DNA of 64,000 bases, taken from IMG/VR virus record IMGVR_UViG_3300046536_000256, positions 62,001-126,000 of that record, one strand, 5' to 3'. Both the position numbers and the translations under genes were made by a program. Shown here in pieces: positions 2,603 through 63,343 of this stretch (its first letter is position 1; each line of letters opens with the position of its first letter). The notes under the pieces were generated by a model that saw nothing but the letters and a program-made list of their open reading frames with translations, was not told the DNA's origin and searched no databases. This DNA comes from a virus.

Positions 2603-4390
2603 TTACCAGGTGGTGGCCGATCCACTGATCGGTGCTAACCAGAAACGATCGGGGATCAGTTCTTCGTTAGACAGGTCAGTGTAAATGATCCAACCTTTGA
2701 TTGCTGAATCAGGGAACGCAACTTGCAAGCCTTCAGGCATCGCCGCCACGAGACCGTAAGCGAAGTTCAGCACGGTGAACTCAGACGAGCTGATTGGTTT
2801 GCTGGCCAGTGCGGCTTTAACCTCGTCAGAGATCGTTTGATGTCCATTACGGGTAAACCTCAGTTCAGAGATACTGGTGATCAAGGTGTCGAAAGTATCT
2901 TCGATTGTGTCTGACACCTGGAACTTGAACGTTTGCAGCGGGTACTTCAAACTACCCAAGGTCTCGATCAAACCCGGGTATTGAACCCACTCGGCGCCTT
3001 CCGGGTATTCGAGCCGTTGGAGAAGGTTACCAATGCTAGTGCAGTTGTAAACGACCGAACCCTTTGTGTCTAGGTTAGTCGTGTGCTGGGCCACGTTCCC
3101 TGTATACGTGTCGATTGCCATACCCACAAACCGTTCATTACGCGGCAGTCCCAGAGGGGTTAGGTCATAACCACCAACTTTGCTCCCAGCGATTACTGCG
3201 TGGTAACGATTGTTGACATTTGTCATAGCACCCATGAAAGGACTGAACGGGAATTCAGCGTGCCCGAAACTGTTGTACCGCTCGTTGGCATAGTTCCCCG
3301 GCCCCGCTGGCATGCTGAACTCAGGGTTCTTCTGCCACGCACCCATGTGATCTTTAACGTATCGCGGACCAGCCAAACGTTCTTTCACCAACTCTAACAG
3401 TTCCAAACCAGCAGGGTTGTTAGCCCCACGCATCTGCGCCGGCATTGGGCGGATCTGAGTGAGTGAGTAGAGTTCCAGAAGACCCACGATGTCGTTATTG
3501 GTAACACGCCCGTACGGGTCCATCGGACCACCGGGCATCATGAACATGCGGTTAGGGCTGAAGCTGTTGAATGGGTTGAGTGGTGGGTTGGAGTTATTGA
3601 ACATCCCATATGGGTGCGGGGTTGGTTTGACCATGCTGTCAGTTACCCCGGCAACGAATCCATTGGATCCCAGTTCAATGGTGTAACGGTCGACACAGGT
3701 GAATTCCCAGCCTGGATGACCGATCTCTTTCCTTTCCCAGAGCTTGGCGGTGACAGTGTACCGATCAATGAGCTGGGTCAGCAGAGGCATGGACGGAACC
3801 ATCGTGTTAATGACGGCGGTTGCATCCAATTCGTCGATGAAGAAACCGGTGTTGACCAAGTGAGTTTTCAGGAAGTTCAGGTCAATTCCCTGTGGGGTCA
3901 TGAACTCGTTCAAAGTAACGGTCATGGTCAAAGGTTTCTGTGGTTGAGTTTGCATGGTGTCAGTACCCTTCTTTGGTGTAAGGTTAGAAATGAACAGTTG
4001 GGTTCGTTTGGTTTTGTTTCTGGTGCCTTTTACGCAGTATTCCAGGTGGTAATCGATCAGCTTCATTTTCGAGCCGAGTACCAAAGTTACTTGGTTTTTC
4101 TGCAACCCGCCAATGTCGCAAAGCAGCCCCGGTAGTCGCTCACTGAGATCTTGTCGAACTAGCTTGCGGCCGGTCTCACCCACCGGCCAGAGACCGTCGC
4201 GGTCGCAACCGTCCAGAACCTTACACAGGCTCTCCATGAACGAGTTGGGCGCTTGCGCCATCAGACTATTCAGATCGATCTGAATGAAGTCGTCTTTTAC
4301 AGTCAAGCTTGCGTGTCCAGTAGAACCTTTCCCCAAACCAATGAACAGGTCGAAAAATCTTCTACCAACTGATTGCCGTTGGTTCTCCAT
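2603..4390 (-). CDS. Putative virion protein with YDLTP domain, 595 aa
   Basis: The frame is open to 4462, but the ATG at 4390 (MENQRQSVGRR) has an AGGGGG ribosome site 7 bases upstream and is preferred. A second in-frame ATG at 3955 (MQTQPQKPLTMTV) follows GAAGGG and could start a shorter form. The middle has a Pro/Asn/Met-rich linker (residues about 255-305 of this form). The C-terminal half carries a domain with GGYDLTP, ...FVGMAID, VVYNCTS and GNLLQRLEY that is clearly related to the C-terminal part of the protein at 61913-63343. Function unknown; its place in the head module and the shared domain suggest a structural role. Confidence 0.75.
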   Translation of the reverse strand: MENQRQSVGRRFFDLFIGLGKGSTGHASLTVKDDFIQIDLNSLMAQAPNSFMESLCKVLDGCDRDGLWPVGETGRKLVRQDLSERLPGLLCDIGGLQKNQVTLVLGSKMKLIDYHLEYCVKGTRNKTKRTQLFISNLTPKKGTDTMQTQPQKPLTMTVTLNEFMTPQGIDLNFLKTHLVNTGFFIDELDATAVINTMVPSMPLLTQLIDRYTVTAKLWERKEIGHPGWEFTCVDRYTIELGSNGFVAGVTDSMVKPTPHPYGMFNNSNPPLNPFNSFSPNRMFMMPGGPMDPYGRVTNNDIVGLLELYSLTQIRPMPAQMRGANNPAGLELLELVKERLAGPRYVKDHMGAWQKNPEFSMPAGPGNYANERYNSFGHAEFPFSPFMGAMTNVNNRYHAVIAGSKVGGYDLTPLGLPRNERFVGMAIDTYTGNVAQHTTNLDTKGSVVYNCTSIGNLLQRLEYPEGAEWVQYPGLIETLGSLKYPLQTFKFQVSDTIEDTFDTLITSISELRFTRNGHQTISDEVKAALASKPISSSEFTVLNFAYGLVAAMPEGLQVAFPDSAIKGWIIYTDLSNEELIPDRFWLAPISGSATTW

Positions 4391-52769: not shown

Positions 52770-53203
52770 AACTTAACTCCCTCGGCCATCAGCAGCCATT
52801 GATTACGGAAGGCACGAATTACCTTGATGGTTTTGATTTCGTAGCCGTTATACATCGCATTGATCTTGTCTTCATTGTGACGATGAAAAGACGTGATCAG
52901 TTCCTCGATCTGGGCGCTGAGGCGTATAAAGCCTCCCTCCGGATCCAGCATGAAGTCCCAGAGTTCTTCCCCATGGGCCGCGTAGGTGATATTCCCGACG
53001 CTGTCGTACAAGCGGTCCTTGAGGTGACCGTAGAACCATCCCTCATCAAACCAGTCGTCGCGCCCGCCTGTGTCCATCAGTAACTCGATGAGGCCTTCTT
53101 CTACAACCGCCGTAACTACAGTGGTTGCATTATGAATACCCGGGCACTTCAGTAGGAGTGGTATAGACTTGACTTGGCGATCTTTCTCCGCTAACGGAGC
53201 CAT
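52766..53203 (-). CDS. Hypothetical protein, 145 aa, tandem paralog A
   Basis: Not recognised, but it aligns along its length with the next gene upstream: LLLKCPG / LMLKLECP, WFYGHLKDRLYD / SFRRHLEDQFYE, and the ends IKVIRAFRNQWLLMAEG / LDLIKTLPNHWIIAVKKG. The two are a diverged tandem duplication. Role unknown. Confidence 0.75.
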   Translation of the reverse strand: MAPLAEKDRQVKSIPLLLKCPGIHNATTVVTAVVEEGLIELLMDTGGRDDWFDEGWFYGHLKDRLYDSVGNITYAAHGEELWDFMLDPEGGFIRLSAQIEELITSFHRHNEDKINAMYNGYEIKTIKVIRAFRNQWLLMAEGVKL

Positions 53204-53204
53204 G

Positions 53205-53621
53205 TCAACCTCCTTTCTTTACAGCGATTATCCAATGATTGGGTAGCGTCTTGATCAGATCCAGTTCGCATTTCCAATAAGCACGTTGGGTCAGATCAAT
53301 TACCGATTTATTACACTCTGCGAAAGACGCCAGTGTTTTGTAAAACTCATCCAGGTACATCTGAAAACAAGAATGAGGATCACGCATATAACTTATCCGT
53401 TCTTCTTCGCTACCAGAAAAGGTAACGTATCCGTCGAACTCGTAGAACTGGTCTTCCAAATGCCGCCTGAAAGATCCCAGATGCAGACCCTCATCAATAT
53501 TCTCACCGAACGATAACACCGACAACAACGCATCTTGCAGTGCATTTTCTACAACCTGACTCGTCCGGCATACCCTAGGGCATTCCAGCTTCAACATCAG
53601 GAACTTGTCTTTATCGCCCAT
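53205..53621 (-). CDS. Hypothetical protein, 138 aa, tandem paralog B
   Basis: Diverged copy of the 145-aa neighbour (see the shared segments given there). ATG preceded by a weak AAGAG site. First gene of the four small coupled genes downstream of the helicase. Confidence 0.75.
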   Translation of the reverse strand: MGDKDKFLMLKLECPRVCRTSQVVENALQDALLSVLSFGENIDEGLHLGSFRRHLEDQFYEFDGYVTFSGSEEERISYMRDPHSCFQMYLDEFYKTLASFAECNKSVIDLTQRAYWKCELDLIKTLPNHWIIAVKKGG

Positions 53622-53648
53622 AACGGTAACTCTTAAGGGTACTGCGCA

Positions 53649-55961
53649 CTACTGGAGTGCGCAGTTAGAGTCAATCACTTTGAAGGTCTTCTTCTTGGGT
53701 TCGAAGGCGACCTCGCGTTTGCGGAAGTACTCTTTATGTTTCGGCTGGCTTATGCAAACGCCAAACACAAACCGCGGTGTAATCCGACCCCCGAATTCAT
53801 TCCGGTTAGCCAAATCACGTAAGCGGCCAATCATCTGCTTATTACGTTGAGTAGACCCCACCGTATGGAAACAAATGGTTGTTACCAGTCCAGGAATGTC
53901 CTTACCGGTACCGCAGCTGCCTGGCGTGGTTATAACGTGTTCGTGCCGTAGATATTTAGTTTTTCCTTCCTTATCCTTTGACTTGGTATCGTCGCCGGTA
54001 AAGGTCACGAAGTCACCCCCTGGATATTCCTTCTGGAACATCTCAAGCATCACCTCGCACATGCTGACCCTGGAGAAGAAGAAGAGGCACTTAGTGCCAG
54101 GCTCCCGGATGTCGAGGTAATAATCCTCGTACGCCTTCTTAGCCACGTCAAAGTAGAACTGCGTGACGGCACGGTTCCCCAGAATGCTCTGCTCCCAGGT
54201 TAGGTCATTGTAACTACCGAACTGCTGGGTCTTCAGGTTATACCGACGCGGGTTAATGTCGTAAAGGTACGCGACGATGTCGATATAGTTCTCAGGCTCC
54301 GGTTCCTTAAGCCGGATGTGGTATGGGAACATGACCTTGTAGATCTTGTTAATGAACGGGTCATCGGCAGCCAGTGTGGCGGACAGCACCAACACTTTGG
54401 CAAAGTTACCGTACATCAGCGAGATGCACACCTGGTGGATCGCCTCGTGCCCTTCGTCAATGATCCTGAGACCACACTCAAGGCTTTCGAAGATCTTGTC
54501 CAACCCAGGAGTCGACGGATCCTTCTTCTCGTTGCGCAGGTGTACGTCAATGCGCGTCATCGGCACAATGATTACTTTAGGGTCAACCGTCCCCTTCAGC
54601 ATCAACTCCTGCAACTTCTCGAGATCCTGTTCCCACACCAACACATCAGACGGTTGCAAGTCGATGATGTTACCCAACGCAGTGATCCAGGTGGTGATGT
54701 ACCGTGGCTGGATGGTGATCAGGGTTCGCTTGCCCATCAACAACATCGTCCGAAGACCCATGTAGGTGTTGTGCGTAACGAGGTAGTCCTTGATCACAAA
54801 GCAACGACTGTCATGCTCTACGGCAATGCAGGTGGTCTCAACCGGCCGGTCAATCTCAATGCGGTTAATCCGCAATGCCAGATCACGGTTCTCCTTATCC
54901 CATAATGCTTCCACCTTCTCTTGGACGGTGAACAAGACATCTGGGGTTCGGTGCGTGATAACAACCCAGTTATCGCTATCGGAGTAGTGGGCCTTTGCAA
55001 CACCCCCTATGCTCCACACCAGATCGCGAACCATCTTGGCGCTGGTGCCGTAGTCCGACTGATACAGAATCGACCCATCACCCTGTGGTTCACCTGTAGC
55101 GTCCAACAAACCACGCAGCAAGCCCATCCGCTGAGAGTGTGAGCCCTCAAGGTATTTCTCGCCGAGGAACCGATCTGTTTGACCGATCAGGTAGGGGTCG
55201 ACTATATCTGCGCGTTCCGGATTGCGTTCACTGGCGGTTAAAGGAATGCGCCAGACTTTATCCGCCGGACTGTCCACCAACTCCTGTGTAGTCATGACCT
55301 CCCAATCAGTTTGGCCATCTTGCCGAACTTCCCACTGGTGTTCAGGGCAAGCCACAGCTGTTCTGCCGTCCTCGAAGGTCAGCTTATATGTCGGTGTCAC
55401 CCCTTGAGGGAAAACCCCTGTGACGTACGTGTGGGAGCCGTCAGGAGCCATCACAAGGTCATTAACCTTGATCTGCCCGATTGGCTTCCAACCTTTAGCT
55501 GTTCTGACCGGTGTATCGTTGGCCAGTGCCTTACCAAACCCCGTTGATGCGTTGTTGACCTTAATGGGACCGGGGGCTAGTTGGTACTTGACCCATTCAT
55601 CCTGACCAGGGCGGGTGTTCTCGTAACCTTTGTTGAACTTAAAGGGTACGTTCTTACCGACCAACTCAGGTTCTTCAAGGAGGTCCACTCGGCTCTGGTT
55701 GTAACCCCGATACTGGGCGAACTCCAGAAACTCCTTCAAGAGACTCGAAGGGATACGGTACTCACTCTTATCGAAGTTAGACCGTGCGAATACATGGGTG
55801 ACCTTGTACGCTGTTCGGTTGGTGCCGGGTACAACTACTTTCCCTGTTTTGTACAGGTTAGCCCGACAGAAAGGCATAATGACTTGCGCGTAAAACTCTC
55901 CGTAGAACCCAAAGATTCGTAGGTAGTTATGGGCACGACTGATGGTCGCCACGTGTCTCAT
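53649..55961 (-). CDS. SF2 DExH helicase interrupted by an intein, 770 aa precursor
   Basis: The host protein is a UvsW-like SF2 helicase: motif I ASTGFGK at 138-144 joined across the intein to Thr399, motif II DEGH at 502-505, motif III SAT at 527-529, a motif IV-V region with TGDD and TGKDIPG, and motif VI QMIGRLR at 709-715. The 254-residue insert lies between Lys144 and Thr399, exactly inside the Walker A loop, so the enzyme cannot bind ATP until it is spliced out; mature length is 516 residues. AGGGGG precedes the ATG. A likely role is branch migration and DNA or RNA unwinding in replication and recombination. Confidence 0.8.
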   Translation of the reverse strand: MRHVATISRAHNYLRIFGFYGEFYAQVIMPFCRANLYKTGKVVVPGTNRTAYKVTHVFARSNFDKSEYRIPSSLLKEFLEFAQYRGYNQSRVDLLEEPELVGKNVPFKFNKGYENTRPGQDEWVKYQLAPGPIKVNNASTGFGKALANDTPVRTAKGWKPIGQIKVNDLVMAPDGSHTYVTGVFPQGVTPTYKLTFEDGRTAVACPEHQWEVRQDGQTDWEVMTTQELVDSPADKVWRIPLTASERNPERADIVDPYLIGQTDRFLGEKYLEGSHSQRMGLLRGLLDATGEPQGDGSILYQSDYGTSAKMVRDLVWSIGGVAKAHYSDSDNWVVITHRTPDVLFTVQEKVEALWDKENRDLALRINRIEIDRPVETTCIAVEHDSRCFVIKDYLVTHNTYMGLRTMLLMGKRTLITIQPRYITTWITALGNIIDLQPSDVLVWEQDLEKLQELMLKGTVDPKVIIVPMTRIDVHLRNEKKDPSTPGLDKIFESLECGLRIIDEGHEAIHQVCISLMYGNFAKVLVLSATLAADDPFINKIYKVMFPYHIRLKEPEPENYIDIVAYLYDINPRRYNLKTQQFGSYNDLTWEQSILGNRAVTQFYFDVAKKAYEDYYLDIREPGTKCLFFFSRVSMCEVMLEMFQKEYPGGDFVTFTGDDTKSKDKEGKTKYLRHEHVITTPGSCGTGKDIPGLVTTICFHTVGSTQRNKQMIGRLRDLANRNEFGGRITPRFVFGVCISQPKHKEYFRKREVAFEPKKKTFKVIDSNCALQ
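54768..55529 (-). other. Intein with Ala1 and degenerate endonuclease region, 254 aa
   Basis: Begins with Ala145 (ALANDTPVRTAKGWKPIGQI, block A), continues with block B around TAVACPEHQW (His208), and ends with block F (TCIAVEHDSRCFVIKDYL) and block G VTHN with the terminal His397-Asn398, followed by Thr399 as the +1 residue. The first residue is Ala rather than Cys or Ser, as in the Ala1 (class 2) inteins. The middle has RMGLLRGLLDATG, a recognisable LAGLIDADG motif, with only one clear copy in about 120 residues, so the endonuclease is probably decayed. Confidence 0.85.
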
Positions 55962-55979
55962 GGTAACCCCCTAAATTTT

Positions 55980-56921
55980 TCAAAGCGGTATCCTTTCGAA
56001 GGTATACCCCTTATAGCTGGATCTCTTTTGAGCGATAACATCGGCCACTAACCTTCTGTGAAAGTTCATATTCTTTAATTCTTTTCGCCCAACTATAACT
56101 ATTTGCTCTCCAGTTTCTATATGTGTCGCAAGTAGCTTCGTTGTGACGTAAGGATTTATTGAAAAGAGGTTATTCTTGACCTCGTCATTTAAGCCATGGG
56201 GAAGGGTCTTTAGATCTTCCGGAGTCGCCATCGAGAACTGACAACTCTTATGTTTTCTAAAGCCGGATCCGACTGATCCAAATATTCTTGTGGCGTCGAA
56301 ACCGGAAGCTTCCGCCTCCTTCTTCCCACATATAACAAAGGAATAACCCTTAAACTCTCCAGCCACTACAACACCCTTAACAGGCTTCACTGCGTAATGG
56401 TCGATTCCTACCGGAGATATGAGTAGTCCTGTTTCTCTGGCGTGCCGCACGTTACCTTGTCCAGTAGTCCACTCTAGGTTGAACAAATCGAAATTACTTT
56501 TGACGCCGTCCATGTGGTTGACTTGGAGGTCTTTAGGATGACCTGGTATCTCGAGCGGGACAAATGAGCAGGCTAAGGCCCTATGGAGAGGAACCTTATT
56601 TCTCTGCTTCCCGTTATCTACCATCAGCCTAGGGTATTCCTCCATCATCCACGGTATCAAACGCCCGGTATGTTTATTCTTCTTAAAGGACCAGACTCTC
56701 CCCTTGCTGCTAATAAACATTTTGTACGGTTTAAGAACCTGTTTATCGATGTAGCCATAATAAACAAACGGGACCCACACTTCGTACTCTGGATCCAGTT
56801 CCAGCTTTGCTTTCAAAGCCTTATGCAAAATAGAAAGGTTAAACGGGTATTCAAGTGAGTAATATAGGTTTAAGTCTTGCTCACTTAGTAAATCCTCGGG
56901 TTTATTTGAACTTTCATTCAT
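55980..56921 (-). CDS. HNH homing endonuclease with modular DNA-binding tail, 313 aa
   Basis: Related to the protein at 51321-51830: N-terminal LEYPFNLSILHKALKAK, then VWVPFVYYGY, FISSKGRVWS and an HNH core (LHRALACSFVP, VNHMDGVKSNFDLFNLEW). The C-terminal 150 residues contain two similar modules (GKKEAEASGFDATRIFGSVG and GRKELKNMNFHRRLVADVIA, each followed by a GY-F strand) of NUMOD1 type for DNA recognition. The gene is AT-rich compared with its neighbours, a sign of recent arrival. The ATG at 56939 lies in a hairpin; the ATG at 56921 (MNESSNK) has AAGGAT upstream and is preferred. Confidence 0.75.
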   Translation of the reverse strand: MNESSNKPEDLLSEQDLNLYYSLEYPFNLSILHKALKAKLELDPEYEVWVPFVYYGYIDKQVLKPYKMFISSKGRVWSFKKNKHTGRLIPWMMEEYPRLMVDNGKQRNKVPLHRALACSFVPLEIPGHPKDLQVNHMDGVKSNFDLFNLEWTTGQGNVRHARETGLLISPVGIDHYAVKPVKGVVVAGEFKGYSFVICGKKEAEASGFDATRIFGSVGSGFRKHKSCQFSMATPEDLKTLPHGLNDEVKNNLFSINPYVTTKLLATHIETGEQIVIVGRKELKNMNFHRRLVADVIAQKRSSYKGYTFERIPL

Positions 56922-56933
56922 AACGGTATCCTT

Positions 56934-56958
56934 AACCATCTCGATTGTCGAGATGGTT
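56934..56958 (-). promoter_or_regulatory. 11-bp hairpin over the upstream ATG of the HNH gene
   Basis: AACCATCTCGA (56934-56944) pairs perfectly with TCGAGATGGTT (56948-56958) around a 3-base loop and includes the first possible ATG of the HNH gene. It could limit translation from that start or act as a terminator for transcripts reaching the HNH gene. Confidence 0.5.
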
Positions 56959-57021
56959 ATTTAGGGAGTTAGTAGATTCTGGCAACGTGGCGCATTGTAG
57001 CAGCCTCTTAACAAAATAAAC

Positions 57022-57041
57022 GAGAACCCCGAAGGGTTCCC
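57022..57041 (-). terminator. TTCG-loop terminator after the beta-prime gene
   Basis: On the - strand GAACCC-TTCG-GGGTTC is followed by TCGTTTATTTTG, a compact rho-independent terminator with a stable tetraloop, 14 bases beyond the stop at 57055. Confidence 0.75.
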
Positions 57042-57054
57042 GCCATCGGGTGTG

Positions 57055-59070
57055 TTAAGACGCCCCCAACGCCCAAAACGCTTCGAGTACCGAACCTTGA
57101 CGGTCAGTGGTCATGAAGGTGCGCGGGTCGTTAAGAACGTTCTGTTGTTTCTCAAAGATCAACAACCCGCCTCCGCCCCGGCTGGTGATGCAGTTAATGA
57201 AGCTGGCGAAATACTTATCACCAGAACCATTCGCTAGGGCGTAGTTCAGATTGTTTGGATCTCTGGCCAAGCAGCAGTACAGCAAGGATTCGATGTGAAC
57301 CGCGTTGATACCCTTGATCTCTTGGTTAATGAGCGTCCAGAATTCTGATTGCACTTCGCCAAAGACTTTAGGAGTCACCACTTGGTTACGCCATGCGGTA
57401 TTGCGCTTGTTAAAGGTCATGAAGTTTTCCACACGAGCCCGGTGCATATCCAAATCTTCCCGAGTATAAGGAAGAGCGAACATCGGAGCCAATGTGTTCC
57501 AATCCGACAGGTCGATGGAGATGAAGCGTTTGTCCACCGTGTTCCAACCCTTGTCCAACACAAACTTCAAGAAGTCCAAGGAGAAACGAGCATTACGCGA
57601 CGACACCGAGGTGGTAGCCGAATGCTGCTGCGTAGTTTTGCCACCCATCATGATGTCTTCCACTTGGTAGCGGAAGGTAACGTCGGAGAAGTACGGGAGT
57701 TTATCCAGCCCAACGTCGTCCAATACATCGAGCGACTTCAGGTCGGACAGATCCTTAACAATAGACGACTTCAGAATCAACTCTGAACCCGGAACGCAGA
57801 TCTCAGCCTTCAGGAAGATTTCGTCCCCGTTGGTGTAGATGATATCCTTGTCCCGCATGTGAGGCACGAACTTCCGCGAGGTTGCGTTGCGGATGTAGTG
57901 CTTAGTACTGAGCATTTTCTGCCCCATCGGGTTACATAAGGTAGTGCCCGAGTACATTCCCACGTTTGCGTCTTTCATCATCATGACGTTAAACGGGATG
58001 GTCGACTTCATTTTCCCATAGCAACGGCCGCACGGCTGGCCTGGGTTGTGAGAGTTACAGAACGCTATGCTGCGGAAGGTGATGACGTCACCCGCCTTGA
58101 TCGTGTTCACGTTGCGTTGGTCAATCAGCACCGAGGACCCGTCAGCCATGATCATGTATTTGCCCATCAAGGACAAAGCCATTTCCATGTTCAGGATCTT
58201 CATTGGAACGCCTACAGTAGTGCCGCAGTCGTTCATGTGCAGGATGCTGGACAACGGCGCCGACAGCAAGTGAATCTTGCGGTGGAACCACTCAGCGTCC
58301 TTCAGACCTTTACCGTTGTTGATCAGCGATTTCCCCGAGGAGTTACGTTCCCCCAAGGAATCCGCTAAGTTGGTGATACCGTGTGCATACGGCACGTTAA
58401 CCGCATTCGGGAAGATGGTGTTGTTCAAGTCAAACACCGAACCACGAATGATCGTCGTCTGGAATGCTTGGTTGACGCTCACGCCACCGGTACGCGCCAG
58501 CAGAGCCATGGTGTTAGTGCTCAGACTTTCCGCTTCACGCAGGTAGGTGCTGAACTCTTTCTCGCCATCGTCAATGCTGACTTCATGCTTCAGGATCCGG
58601 TCACGGATATCCATGATCCCGATGTCTTCCATCAGCTCCGCCACCGACTCAGCCGTAGCTGAAATCACCGACGCCTCACTCATCACCACAATCATGTTGT
58701 TGAGTTTGGTTTGCCAGATGTGCACCTGACGCTTGATGCTGTCGGTTTCTACCGGGTCATCGATCTCCGGCATGACCTTTTCCAACACCCAGTTAACCGG
58801 GATCGCTAGAGTGTCATCATTGTAAACAACCTCCTTATGCTCCGGGTTGGTGTTGGATGGGATCAGTTCATCAATCGAGTACGGTACATCGTTGTACTTG
58901 CGGTGAACGATTAAGCCTTGCCAGGTCAACATCATGGCGAACAGGCAAGACAGTGTCTTCTTGCCTTCGTCGTCCACCACTTCCACTTGATGTCGGAAAC
59001 CACGACAGCGGATGATGTCTTCCTCAGGGAGGTTGGCCCACTCACGCAGGCTAATTTGCATGCAGCCCAT
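57055..59070 (-). CDS. RNA polymerase beta-prime C-terminal fragment, 671 aa
   Basis: Residues about 185-285 (a helix-rich stretch with LADSLGERNSSGKSLINNG, then a helix ending in HMNDCGT at 281-284) match the beta-prime region from the bridge helix to the DCGT motif. RSIAFCNSHN and PCGRCYGKM (Cys338, 347, 350) match the zinc site before VGMYSGTTLCNPMGQKMLST, equivalent to [20 protein letters not shown]. So the piece starts after the catalytic DFDGD loop, which must lie in another gene. It is coupled to the beta gene by TAATG. It differs clearly from the 431-aa beta-prime fragment, so two enzymes are represented. Confidence 0.75.
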   Translation of the reverse strand: MGCMQISLREWANLPEEDIIRCRGFRHQVEVVDDEGKKTLSCLFAMMLTWQGLIVHRKYNDVPYSIDELIPSNTNPEHKEVVYNDDTLAIPVNWVLEKVMPEIDDPVETDSIKRQVHIWQTKLNNMIVVMSEASVISATAESVAELMEDIGIMDIRDRILKHEVSIDDGEKEFSTYLREAESLSTNTMALLARTGGVSVNQAFQTTIIRGSVFDLNNTIFPNAVNVPYAHGITNLADSLGERNSSGKSLINNGKGLKDAEWFHRKIHLLSAPLSSILHMNDCGTTVGVPMKILNMEMALSLMGKYMIMADGSSVLIDQRNVNTIKAGDVITFRSIAFCNSHNPGQPCGRCYGKMKSTIPFNVMMMKDANVGMYSGTTLCNPMGQKMLSTKHYIRNATSRKFVPHMRDKDIIYTNGDEIFLKAEICVPGSELILKSSIVKDLSDLKSLDVLDDVGLDKLPYFSDVTFRYQVEDIMMGGKTTQQHSATTSVSSRNARFSLDFLKFVLDKGWNTVDKRFISIDLSDWNTLAPMFALPYTREDLDMHRARVENFMTFNKRNTAWRNQVVTPKVFGEVQSEFWTLINQEIKGINAVHIESLLYCCLARDPNNLNYALANGSGDKYFASFINCITSRGGGGLLIFEKQQNVLNDPRTFMTTDRQGSVLEAFWALGAS

Positions 59071-61406
59071 TACACACCCCCGTAAATGTTGTCAGTACCG
59101 CCTGTTACTCCGTGCATTTCAAAATCCTCAGGAATTGCCGCCGGGTTAAAACCGCGCTTACCCGCATAACGCGGTTCGGCTGGTGGGCTTGGCGCCGGTG
59201 GCTCTGGGACCAGGAACTCTGGAACAGGACCCGCTTCTTTGATGTAGTTGTTAAACATCGCATCAAGTGGTTCAATCGTGCGGTCACTCGGCAGCTCACT
59301 GCGAATGGTGTAGCCCGAGTCAGACAACATACTCGACGCCATCTTCACTGCACGGTTGTTCTTGTACTCATCTGGCTTGACGATCTGATCGATATCAAAC
59401 GGATCGTTAGCCCGGATGGCCCGACGCACCATGACCTTACGCAGATCAGGAGAATACGCCATCGCCAATTGCTTAGCCGTTTCCTGACCACCGTGCTGGC
59501 TGGTACGCAGACGACCTTCAGTTTCACCCGTGTTCCGGTTACCCTGATCGCGCAGCCAGCTGGAGTACTTGCTGCTGTCATTCAGCTTCGCCGGCATACC
59601 GAACAAGTTAGACTTAGGCAATGCCTGAGCCGACATATCCGTACCGAACTTATCCAGCATCATGAAGTGCTGGTTACTGATGAGGATTGGGTTCACGGTC
59701 TCCACGTACTCACCCAACGAGTTCATGAAGGTAGCCTTCTGCGGTTTGAAGGGGTACTTCGCGCGCAGCGCGTTAATGATCCCCACGCCGTACAAACGGG
59801 TGTTACTGCGAACATGGATGGAGATCATGTGGTCACAGCAGTGGTCGACGTAATCCTTAATGTCTTCCGCGGTCTGGTAGGTTGCCCGAACGATCTCGCC
59901 AAACTCCGGGAAACCGGTCTCACAGAACTCCAGGATCATTGCATAGGCTTCAGCGTACTGACCCAGGTTACGCAACAGAGTTGCTTCTTTCTGGATGTTC
60001 ACGTTGATGTAGTTAATACTCAGCTCCATCAACATGGAGTAGATCTGACGACGGAACGCTGGTGTGTTGTTGATCACGACTTCCGCACGAGTACCGTCCG
60101 CGTAGGTCGGCGCCATGTGGTCTTCGATGATGCTTACCGCTACACCTTTGTCGCCGTTCAAACCTGCGAACTTGAACTTGATCCGACCAGGCACGATTTC
60201 GCGCAGCAGGATTGTAATGTTCCAGTCCTTCAGTTTAACGCGCTTGATCCCCCGGCTGAGTGGGTTGATCCGCCCGCTCTGGCTGTGGCGGGTATAGTTG
60301 CCGTACGCCAAGTTAATAAAGGTATCGAGTTCCACGGTGATTGGAATGTCGTTACCGCGGTTAGCCGCGATGCGACGCTCGTACCAGCGCAAGATGTTGT
60401 TGTGCATCTCGTTCTGGCGTTTCTCATACCGCTCCAGCAAATCGGTGTGAGGTTGTGGGATGTAATCAGTACCCCGGTTGTTCGCACGGTTCTTCATGCG
60501 GTCGCTTAACACTTCGACCGACATGACTTCCGAGTTAATCGGAGCGTAGAACAGTTGGTCGTAGGTCAAGTCCGGAATGGTCAGTGCTTTCCGGGTCAGG
60601 GACACCAAGGAGTTCTCGGCAACGCGGCGACGGAAGCCCATGACAATGCCGTCAGGACGAATACGATCACCCGACTGTGGAAACGGGCATGGGTTGCCTT
60701 CTTTATCCTTGTACAGCATCAGAGGAACCCACTCGTCCTCATTCCACTGGAACCCACGATCGTGTTTAAACATGCAGCGCAGGCGTTCTTCAGCGTACGA
60801 CCGAGTCAGCTGAATTGCATCCTCCTCGGTAACGTGGCTGGAGATAGCGGCGACGCGGGTGTTCATACCGAAGCACCATTCACCGCTTTCGCTGATACGT
60901 GGGGATTGTGCGAACACGGTACCCTTGGCAAAGGTAGCGTTCGGTTTCCCCAGACGGCGCATGACATCTTTGTCATAGACGTACTCGAATCCCACGTAGG
61001 TGTTCTGCGTGTTATATCGAGGAAGTTCCAGAACGTCGTACATGCCTTTTTCGTCGTTCTTAAACACCACCCAGATTTTGTTCCAAGCGTCAGTCTGGCC
61101 AATCTCCCCAGTGGCCGAGACGTAGAAAACTTCTTCAACCACCATGTTGGCGGGCGCTACGATCTTGCGGGCAGTTTGCGCGTAACCTTGCTGCCATTCG
61201 AAACCGGTCACCATCATGCGCTCATCGGCGCCCGAGGTTACTACCGATTTCGGAATCATGTTACCGGCCATGTACAAACGACCAGCGGAAGCAGACCATG
61301 GAAACAGAATCAGGTTATTACTAACGCCTACTAGTGCTGGGTGAATCTGATTCGGTCCGCAAATGTACTTGTACTTCACATCTTGTGCGGTCTCTTTGTC
61401 ACTCAT
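59070..61406 (-). CDS. RNA polymerase beta C-terminal fragment, 778 aa
   Basis: FGMNTRVAAISSHVTEEDAI (179-197) matches the beta block LGRNVRVAFMPWxGYNxEDAI; GDRIRPDGIVMGFRR lies at 246-260; IKFKFAGLNGDKGVAVSI (409-425) matches KMAGRHGNKGVIS; and RNTGETEGRL near the C-terminus matches the GGQRFGEMExxAL end of beta. The protein starts where the split N-terminal half (compare 8506-10158) stops. The C-terminal 40 residues are a Pro-rich tail. TAGGAG precedes the ATG. Whether it belongs to the virion or the non-virion enzyme cannot be decided from sequence alone. Confidence 0.75.
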   Translation of the reverse strand: MSDKETAQDVKYKYICGPNQIHPALVGVSNNLILFPWSASAGRLYMAGNMIPKSVVTSGADERMMVTGFEWQQGYAQTARKIVAPANMVVEEVFYVSATGEIGQTDAWNKIWVVFKNDEKGMYDVLELPRYNTQNTYVGFEYVYDKDVMRRLGKPNATFAKGTVFAQSPRISESGEWCFGMNTRVAAISSHVTEEDAIQLTRSYAEERLRCMFKHDRGFQWNEDEWVPLMLYKDKEGNPCPFPQSGDRIRPDGIVMGFRRRVAENSLVSLTRKALTIPDLTYDQLFYAPINSEVMSVEVLSDRMKNRANNRGTDYIPQPHTDLLERYEKRQNEMHNNILRWYERRIAANRGNDIPITVELDTFINLAYGNYTRHSQSGRINPLSRGIKRVKLKDWNITILLREIVPGRIKFKFAGLNGDKGVAVSIIEDHMAPTYADGTRAEVVINNTPAFRRQIYSMLMELSINYINVNIQKEATLLRNLGQYAEAYAMILEFCETGFPEFGEIVRATYQTAEDIKDYVDHCCDHMISIHVRSNTRLYGVGIINALRAKYPFKPQKATFMNSLGEYVETVNPILISNQHFMMLDKFGTDMSAQALPKSNLFGMPAKLNDSSKYSSWLRDQGNRNTGETEGRLRTSQHGGQETAKQLAMAYSPDLRKVMVRRAIRANDPFDIDQIVKPDEYKNNRAVKMASSMLSDSGYTIRSELPSDRTIEPLDAMFNNYIKEAGPVPEFLVPEPPAPSPPAEPRYAGKRGFNPAAIPEDFEMHGVTGGTDNIYGGV

Positions 61407-61513
61407 TACAATCTCCTACCCACTAATGCTCTGTTACAAAAAGAAATTGTTACCATATCTAACCTAATGATATAGGTTTAAAATCGGTTAACCCCATCTT
61501 TGCAGGTAGCTTT
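61407..61513. promoter_or_regulatory. Divergent control region with inverted repeat
   Basis: A 107-base AT-rich gap between the divergent beta gene and the + strand gene at 61514. AACCTA (61461-61466) and TAGGTT (61473-61478) form an inverted repeat around TATA-like sequence (AATGATATAG). Likely to hold promoters for both directions; no precise start can be given. Confidence 0.45.
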
Positions 61514-61843
61514 ATGCCAATTCCTAACAACGAGATCAATAGCGACAAGGACGTGTTCTTTACCGAAAGCTTCAAGACCCTTGTTCGTTCTGAAAAGGAG
61601 CTACTTAAGCGTTCGGCTCATAGCAAGCCTATCGTTGAAAAGAACGTGCTCTACGCCTACCGTAATGACATCTACCGATTGCTGCGGAGTTTTGAGATTC
61701 CGTCTTATATGTGGTGGGCTACTGCGTACATCAATGGCTTCGAAGACCCCACATCGGACATCACGAACTTGTCAGAGATTTTCATCATCGATGAGTCCGT
61801 GTTGGCTGGAGCCATCTCCCGAAGTAATACAGTTCAGGGATAA
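61514..61843 (+). CDS. Small baseplate-wedge gp53-like protein, 109 aa
   Basis: NDIYRLLRSFEIPSYMWWAT followed by AYINGFEDPTSDITNLSE resembles the core of T4 gp53-type baseplate proteins (a Y-x-WW-IA-N-I-DP pattern in which a short Trp-rich helix is followed by an Asn-rich turn). The length is shorter than T4 gp53. AGGT lies before the ATG. Single-gene unit with a strong hairpin behind. The similarity is short, so the call is tentative. Confidence 0.6.
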   Translation: MPIPNNEINSDKDVFFTESFKTLVRSEKELLKRSAHSKPIVEKNVLYAYRNDIYRLLRSFEIPSYMWWATAYINGFEDPTSDITNLSEIFIIDESVLAGAISRSNTVQG

Positions 61844-61867
61844 AAAATAAATGAGCCTTAAGAAATG

Positions 61868-61892
61868 GGTAGGGGAGCTCAGCTCCCCTACC
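61868..61892. terminator. 12-bp bidirectional hairpin
   Basis: GGTAGGGGAGCT (61868-61879) and AGCTCCCCTACC (61881-61892) pair perfectly around one base (effectively a 3-5 base loop). Between convergent genes. On + it is followed by TATGACTT. Confidence 0.75.
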
Positions 61893-61912
61893 TATGACTT
61901 ATAGCCGCTTAC

Positions 61913-63343
61913 TTACCAGGAAGCTGGTTGCGCACCGCCACCGTTATCCGGATAAACCGATGGCGCTACGCCGCCCGCGGTAACCGGTTGGTTCATCATC
62001 ATCATCGGATTCATCATCATGCCAGGCTGCATCATCATCAAGGGATTGAACCCCATCATGTTCTGGTTGCCCATCATGTTGTTCATCATCGCCTGATTCT
62101 GCATCTGCATGGCATTCATCTCCACGCGTTGCAGGAAGTTACCGCGACGGGTGCAGTGGTAAACCACTGGGCTGCCCGACATGGTGTTAACAGCATGGTG
62201 CAGGACGCGTCCGCTGTTCTGATCGATTTCAGTACGGACGTAACGATCGCCCGCTTGCATTGGTGGAGGAGTGAGATCGTAATCACCCACCATCATGTTT
62301 TGCGGTTGGTTCGGGTTCTGCTGCTGATTGATCTGCTGGTTCTGCTGGTTGCTGGTTGACGAGACAGACAACAGGCCGGCCATGTCATTGCGACCCATGG
62401 CTTGGTTGACCGTTTCGTCTTGGGTGTTGTGACTGTTGTAGTCCATGATTGGAACTTGGCGGTAGGTCTCTGGCAACTCCTCCAGATATTCCACCCAGCC
62501 CATGTCGATCATGTACACGCCGGCTTTGTCGAAATCACCGCGGAACGTATTCTGGATCTTGTTCAGCTGATCCGCGATATTGCCGTAGCAGCCCAAGTAC
62601 GAGATCAAACGTGCAGCCACCGGAGTGGTCGACTCGAACTCGAACTCACCAGGGTTGTTCACCGCCGGGATGATCGACTGGAACAAGTGACGCGCCAGTT
62701 TCAGTGCACCAATCGAAATGCTGTGGTTGTTGAGTTCCACAGTTTGGTTATCGGAGACACCTTCCGAACGCGCCAGCTTCTTGACGATCTCGTTGTAGAA
62801 CGGGAACGACGGTTTGGTCTTGTAGTACACACGCTCGCCAGTTGCCTGGCTACGCCCACCGCCTTTAACAACCGTGAAGTGAATGAAGCGGTTGTCGGTG
62901 CCGTCTTCTTCCAGTTCAATGTGCATCCGGGCAAACAACTGATTCAGCTCATCACGCACAGAGCGCTTGGCTTCTTTCAGCGGTTCCATCATGTCGATGA
63001 TGTCCTGACGCCATGCTTTCTTTGGTCGAGCAGCAGCGGCAATGCCGAACAGCACGATTGGGTAAGCACGGAATACCGACAGCAGTTTCATGCAGGTCAT
63101 CTTGCGGATGATCTTGAACACCTCGGTTTCTTTCGAGGTGATGTTCTCGCACGCTGGGTGGAAGAACACCTTGTTCATGACGTTGCCGTCGAGGATGTTG
63201 GACAGTGGCAGGTACATGTCCATTTCATCGATCCGGATCGGGAATTCCTCACCATTGATGACGAACATGATGCGGCCGTCTTCCTTGACAGCACAGCTCC
63301 ACGATTTAACCATTGCCGCGTACAGTTTGTTCAATTCGTTCAT
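61913..63343 (-). CDS. Putative virion protein with Met-rich tail, 476 aa
   Basis: The N-terminal 300 residues look globular. From about 315 a Gln/Asn-rich linker leads to a domain with GDYDLTP, VRTEID, VVYHCTR and GNFLQRVEM that matches the C-terminal domain of the protein at 2603-4390. The last 70 residues are extremely Met/Asn-rich (NMMGNQNMMGFNPLMMMQPG). AAGGA precedes the ATG. No enzyme motif is seen. The two proteins probably bind similar partners; the function is unknown. Confidence 0.75.
   Translation of the reverse strand: MNELNKLYAAMVKSWSCAVKEDGRIMFVINGEEFPIRIDEMDMYLPLSNILDGNVMNKVFFHPACENITSKETEVFKIIRKMTCMKLLSVFRAYPIVLFGIAAAARPKKAWRQDIIDMMEPLKEAKRSVRDELNQLFARMHIELEEDGTDNRFIHFTVVKGGGRSQATGERVYYKTKPSFPFYNEIVKKLARSEGVSDNQTVELNNHSISIGALKLARHLFQSIIPAVNNPGEFEFESTTPVAARLISYLGCYGNIADQLNKIQNTFRGDFDKAGVYMIDMGWVEYLEELPETYRQVPIMDYNSHNTQDETVNQAMGRNDMAGLLSVSSTSNQQNQQINQQQNPNQPQNMMVGDYDLTPPPMQAGDRYVRTEIDQNSGRVLHHAVNTMSGSPVVYHCTRRGNFLQRVEMNAMQMQNQAMMNNMMGNQNMMGFNPLMMMQPGMMMNPMMMMNQPVTAGGVAPSVYPDNGGGAQPASW

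Follow-up and report, generated by a model that had tools for sequence, protein, structure and literature searches.

Class 3 inteins splice without needing an N-terminal nucleophile and are defined by Trp B12, Cys F4 and Thr G5 (the WCT), with Cys F4 making the first attack (PMC3196547, PMC5050341, PMC5222942). This chemistry was shown experimentally for the Deinococcus radiodurans Snf2 and mycobacteriophage Bethlehem DnaB inteins (PMC3196547), and the mechanism, with a Cys-His-Thr triad, was established on MchDnaB1 (PMC7664689). One survey counted 1701 class 3 inteins (PMC7891396), and a P-loop is a classic location for an intein within an ATPase (PMC5050341). Membership in the family alone is no proof of activity, because Arsp-FB24, a class 3 intein that lacks Cys F4, proved inactive (PMC3196547); grafting the WCT onto a class 1 intein was insufficient for splicing (PMC7664689).

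Several described inteins resemble the one reported here. The ORF040 helicase of Pseudomonas phage EL and the helicases of phiRU, HHBS8_1 and IR-QUMS, all Elvirus, hold inteins in the same gene, at the same GFGK/TYM junction, with the WCT, a terminal HN-Thr and, as in our case, a truncated homing endonuclease. These inteins nevertheless share only around 38–39% identity with ours, begin with Met and have an endonuclease truncation of a different shape. Inteins of Shewanella phage FishSpeaker, Raoultella phage VB_ZK_P1 and Aeromonas phage D6 occupy the same helicase site and carry the WCT, but are 351–364 amino acids long with a complete LAGLIDADG region (VMGVLLGDG and LLDTDG are among its motifs). 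The best solved class 3 matches, mycobacterial MsmDnaB1 (6bs8) and MchDnaB1 (6rix/6riy), share the HINT fold with the WCT but reside in DnaB, have solved chains of around 125–146 amino acids (half the length) and are 16–33% identical where aligned. The D. radiodurans Snf2 and Bethlehem DnaB inteins, likened to ours by description only, also have helicase-type hosts, although these are different proteins.

The window analysed here, a stretch of 64,000 nucleotides, belongs to a 233-kb IMG/VR virus record. It encodes a core SF2 helicase of phiKZ/EL-like jumbo phages, interrupted within its Walker A motif:

53649..55961, minus strand: helicase precursor gene, 770 amino acids, predicted to be 516 once spliced (translation, phrog_16, Pfam, synteny)
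55530..55550, minus strand: N-extein junction ASTGFGK, the first part of Walker A (the same motif is continuous with Thr in intein-free orthologues)
54768..55529, minus strand: intein, very probably class 3, of 254 amino acids, from Ala1 to His-Asn254 (translation, same-site alignment, fold model)
54765..54767, minus strand: Thr+1, both the C-extein nucleophile and the Walker A Thr (translation, relatives)

A PHROG profile search matched phrog_16 ('DNA helicase') across the whole 770-residue open reading frame (E = 2e-43). The helicase sequence without the insert matched Pfam DEAD (residues 137–277) and Helicase_C, and the DEAD match at 137–277 appeared only with the insert removed, being missing from the 770-residue precursor. 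In relatives (EL, RisingSun, VP4B, JN03 and Kwan), the helicase gene immediately follows the RNA polymerase beta/beta' genes on their downstream side. The insert comprises precursor residues 145–398 (254 amino acids), mapping exactly to 55529..54768, with flanks that read NASTGFGK / ALANDTPVRT... and ...KDYLVTHN / TYMGLRTM, which places the insertion point between Walker A Lys144 and Thr399 (ASTGFGK/T). It is thus an in-frame insert that carries the intein blocks and ends in Asn followed by Thr (...THN/T). An earlier note had proposed an Ala1 intein at 54768–55529 in the Walker A loop of a phage SF2 helicase, splitting ASTGFGK from Thr, ending in HN-T and leaving joined exteins of 516 amino acids. 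Translation and relatives confirm this reading: the boundaries are exact, VTHN is followed by Thr+1, and joining the exteins reproduces the 516-residue length.

Intein-free orthologues lack exactly the 254-residue segment, the outcome of a comparison that the note had suggested. The host sequence is continuous in L049, L016, L048 and RisingSun, which align over their full length, the site included (64%, 59% and 53% identity to the window helicase for L049, L016 and RisingSun, respectively), and also in GXNNE2, which has an uninterrupted GFGKTYM where EL and IR-QUMS hold an intein. GXNNE2 helicase DNA differs from that of EL at 36 of 1539 positions, excluding the 744-nucleotide EL insert, and from that of IR-QUMS at 15 of 1539 positions outside the intein. 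A further 15 distinct helicase genes, from IMG/VR and from Elvirus phages, carry an in-frame intein at the same place; together with the empty orthologues, these indicate that the insert is not there by chance. A full-length homologue with the segment inside the helicase fold was searched for, and none was found.

The catalytic residues of the intein were scored on an alignment of seven same-site inteins:

55332..55340, minus strand: block B, His64-x-Trp66 (B10 His and B12 Trp of the WCT); both residues invariant
54828..54830, minus strand: block F, Cys234 (F4), the proposed first nucleophile; invariant
54768..54776, minus strand: block G, Thr252-His253-Asn254 (G5, G6 and G7); all three invariant

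These residues lie in the motifs CPEH-Q-W (His64 and Trp66), ETTC (Cys234) and VTHN (Thr252, His253 and Asn254), followed by Thr+1, such that Trp B12, Cys F4 and Thr G5 are all present as W66, C234 and T252. Residue 1, by contrast, varies at this helicase site: it is Ala in the window clade, FishSpeaker, Raoultella and VP4B, Met in EL, Ser in L040, Leu in D6 and Glu in AhC3_1, and it is Val in the more distant helicase of Kwan. Whatever residue 1 is, the Trp, Cys and Thr of the WCT are kept in every same-site relative and in Kwan, the pattern predicted for a residue 1 that does not serve as the nucleophile; at the level of sequence, these inteins (Ala, Met, Ser, Leu or Glu at position 1) have no required N-terminal nucleophile. 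The Ser1 intein of L040 starts near position 3433, the Met1 intein of EL corresponds to L001 6433–7176, and D6 and AhC3_1 are both Aeromonas phages.

Structural comparisons were consistent with this signature. Profile searches gave strong matches to PDB sequences of inteins, namely 6riz (gp41-1 with an engineered WCT, 1e-14), 6qaz (wild-type gp41-1), 6rix/6riy (MchDnaB1) and 6bs8 (MsmDnaB1). An AlphaFold model of the intein (pLDDT of 80.7) adopts a predicted HINT fold, with the class 3 intein MsmDnaB1 (6bs8) as its top Foldseek match (E = 1e-7); the top matches were inteins, and a Hedgehog autoprocessing domain also appeared. In the AlphaFold model of the full precursor, confidence is low over the intein.

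Ala at residue 1 would, taken alone, suit either a class 3 intein or a class 2 intein, in which no block F intermediate forms and the N-terminal junction is attacked by Thr+1 itself. We consider the class 2 assignment very improbable: class 2 inteins have neither an N-terminal nucleophile nor a WCT, yet here the complete WCT is present and invariant across the same-site relatives, including those with Met1, Ser1, Leu1 and Glu1; class 2 inteins were known only from KlbA genes when surveyed in PMC3196547; and the nearest solved structures are of class 3. The earlier note had coupled Ala1 to a different first step; the Ala1 stands, and the splicing class, which the note had left open, is assigned to class 3 by the full WCT, the variation of position 1 among relatives and the fold matches. 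Together, these observations make us highly confident that the insert at 54768–55529 is a class 3 intein, with the block F Cys predicted to make the first attack and splicing to yield a 516-residue helicase.

In the mechanism that we propose, the HINT domain would fold between Walker A Lys144 and Thr399 of the 770-residue precursor, and Cys234 of block F, activated by His64 and Thr252, would attack the Lys144–Ala1 bond to yield a block F branched thioester. The N-extein would then be handed over to Thr+1, Asn254 would cyclise with the aid of His253, and an acyl shift would leave GFGKT joined in the 516-residue helicase. Because the intein junction falls between the Walker A Lys and Thr, the ATP/Mg site is incomplete before splicing, and the helicase probably binds ATP only after excision of the intein, with the precursor presumably inactive. 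Such a requirement for splicing of an essential loop would hold the intein in place.

Could the intein instead be a pseudogene that has lost splicing, leaving the helicase dead or dispensable in this phage? The degenerate state of its homing endonuclease, described below, and the precedent of a non-splicing class 3 intein (PMC3196547) would suit such a reading, but we regard it as highly unlikely. Every catalytic residue is intact, including those missing in Arsp-FB24, and the helicase domains remain in an open frame and are conserved as in intein-free relatives. In addition, residues 1–70 of the intein are 93% identical to those of L007 while 14 of 36 fourfold sites differ; the splicing blocks are under strong purifying selection. 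The intein is therefore most likely active in splicing, as judged from its sequence. That the insert is no intein at all, merely a lineage-specific structural domain, has almost negligible probability: the reading frame continues through the insert and a clade conserves it, but it splits the Walker A Lys from Thr, carries every intein block with a predicted HINT fold, is precisely missing from orthologues and has same-family inteins in unrelated proteins of this and other phages. An RNA intron was also rejected, as the frame is open throughout and Rfam gave no match in 53000–62000.

The same genome contains two further class 3 inteins, both outside the window and given here in genome coordinates. 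One (L072, 209652–210464) begins with Ala, lies in the P-loop of an SNF2-like helicase (GSGK/T) and also has a reduced endonuclease; the other (L073, 154892–153951) begins with Met and lies in the Walker A motif of the large terminase (QQGK/T).

The central part of the window intein holds what is left of an endonuclease:

54990..55199, minus strand: remnant of a LAGLIDADG homing endonuclease, residues 111–180 (alignment with the EL RNA polymerase intein; Pfam)

As a full-length reference we used the 366-residue intein of the EL RNA polymerase beta' gene, which has the motifs VLGVLLGDG and LLQGLLDTDG. Compared with it, the window intein stops after PYLIG and resumes at the segment preceding motif 2, a large deletion, and its motif 2 reads LLRGLLDATG, with the catalytic Asp lost. 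Pfam LAGLIDADG gave no match in the window intein, whereas it matched the same-site FishSpeaker intein and the EL polymerase intein. An active LAGLIDADG enzyme has two motifs with catalytic acidic residues, a pair that this intein lacks, and on sequence grounds its homing endonuclease is dead. The same truncation is found in all Ala1 copies of the window clade. The EL gene that supplied the reference (ORF039, L001 2821–5931) is annotated as a helicase, and its class 3 intein, with full LAGLIDADG, sits at AGK/S, a sequence that resembles a P-loop although beta' does not belong to that type of ATPase; the beta' gene of the window is without an intein at this site.

The histories of intein and helicase do not coincide. 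On a helicase tree of 40 distinct sequences, the presence and absence of the intein requires six changes, at least five of which are forced by supported branches. The window and L051 have exteins that are 77% identical and inteins that are 49% identical, whereas the window and L009 have exteins that are 63% identical and inteins that are 72% identical; for the latter pair, fourfold sites differ at 41 of 89 positions in the intein versus 85 of 130 in the extein (Fisher P = 0.005). Approximately unbiased (AU) tests rejected the helicase clade on intein data (P = 0.026) and the intein clade on helicase data (P = 2.7e-5), for groups that were defined with the identities already known and with L051 as a long branch in the intein tree. 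The mismatch in identities and the AU tests disfavour purely vertical descent of the intein. Between IR-QUMS and GXNNE2, 7 of the 15 differences fall within around 115 nucleotides beside the insertion point, as co-conversion would leave them (chance of such a cluster anywhere, 0.0035; noticed post hoc).

This conflict between trees suggests transfer between lineages, even though all sampled copies of the Ala1 group are without a nuclease. The simplest account has the intein moving from phage to phage once its own nuclease had decayed, through recombination or with the help of another nuclease; alternatively, an unsampled nuclease-bearing version of the intein may have been the source. With its LAGLIDADG inactive, the intein would persist chiefly by descent and by recombination between phages.

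The helicase gene also carries an insertion at its 5' end:

55980..56939, minus strand: free-standing HNH homing endonuclease gene, 319 amino acids (HNH_3; phrog_59), inserted in the helicase 5' end
56969..56995, minus strand: stub of the old helicase start, MRHVARIY followed by a stop codon (first 16 nucleotides identical to the helicase start of L007)

The HNH gene was inserted at codon 5 of the helicase gene (window 55961–56995, minus strand). Upstream of it, the old start ATGCGCCACGTTGCCA remains as an eight-codon stub that matches L007 until the sequences diverge after it; on the downstream side, the helicase begins anew with MRHVATISRA, its first ten codons recoded synonymously, and similarity to L007 then resumes. 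This combination of insertion and silent recoding looks like a homing event with protection of the target site. The closest relatives, L007 and L012, have kept the intein and have no HNH gene at that place, and we rejected the HNH enzyme as a general, long-standing partner of the intein. A paralogue (L074), 42% identical over 255 amino acids, lies near 203.1 kb of the same record. We think it unlikely, but conceivable, that a nuclease-less class 3 lineage has kept moving among jumbo-phage lineages at the helicase P-loop, borne by recombination or a different nuclease, and that in the window phage the HNH enzyme could co-convert the intein as it homes. If true, this would be collaborative homing of an intein by a free-standing endonuclease, the HNH gene at codon 5 being around 0.45 kb from the intein.

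The intein also bears on annotation. The name 'terminase' given to this protein was rejected, as PHROG terminase matches fall on the intein and its junction and not on the helicase domains, which is as expected for shared inteins. Intein-free copies (L002 6001–7539 and that of Vibrio phage pTD1) are labelled 'terminase large subunit, intein-containing', and this label on intein-free helicases is a misannotation, which probably spread by way of shared intein sequence. Such sharing suggests why 'terminase large subunit (intein-containing)' is a frequent label for the helicase, even in phages where it has no intein.

Since class 3 and P-loop inteins are well described, the intein itself is unsurprising, and it adds an example to an already known kind of element. 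The natural series at this one site, with Ala, Met, Ser, Leu or Glu at residue 1 and a constant Trp-Cys-Thr, supports the block F Cys mechanism, and nuclease-dead inteins whose tree is discordant with that of their host offer a tractable case of how inteins spread and persist after loss of the endonuclease.
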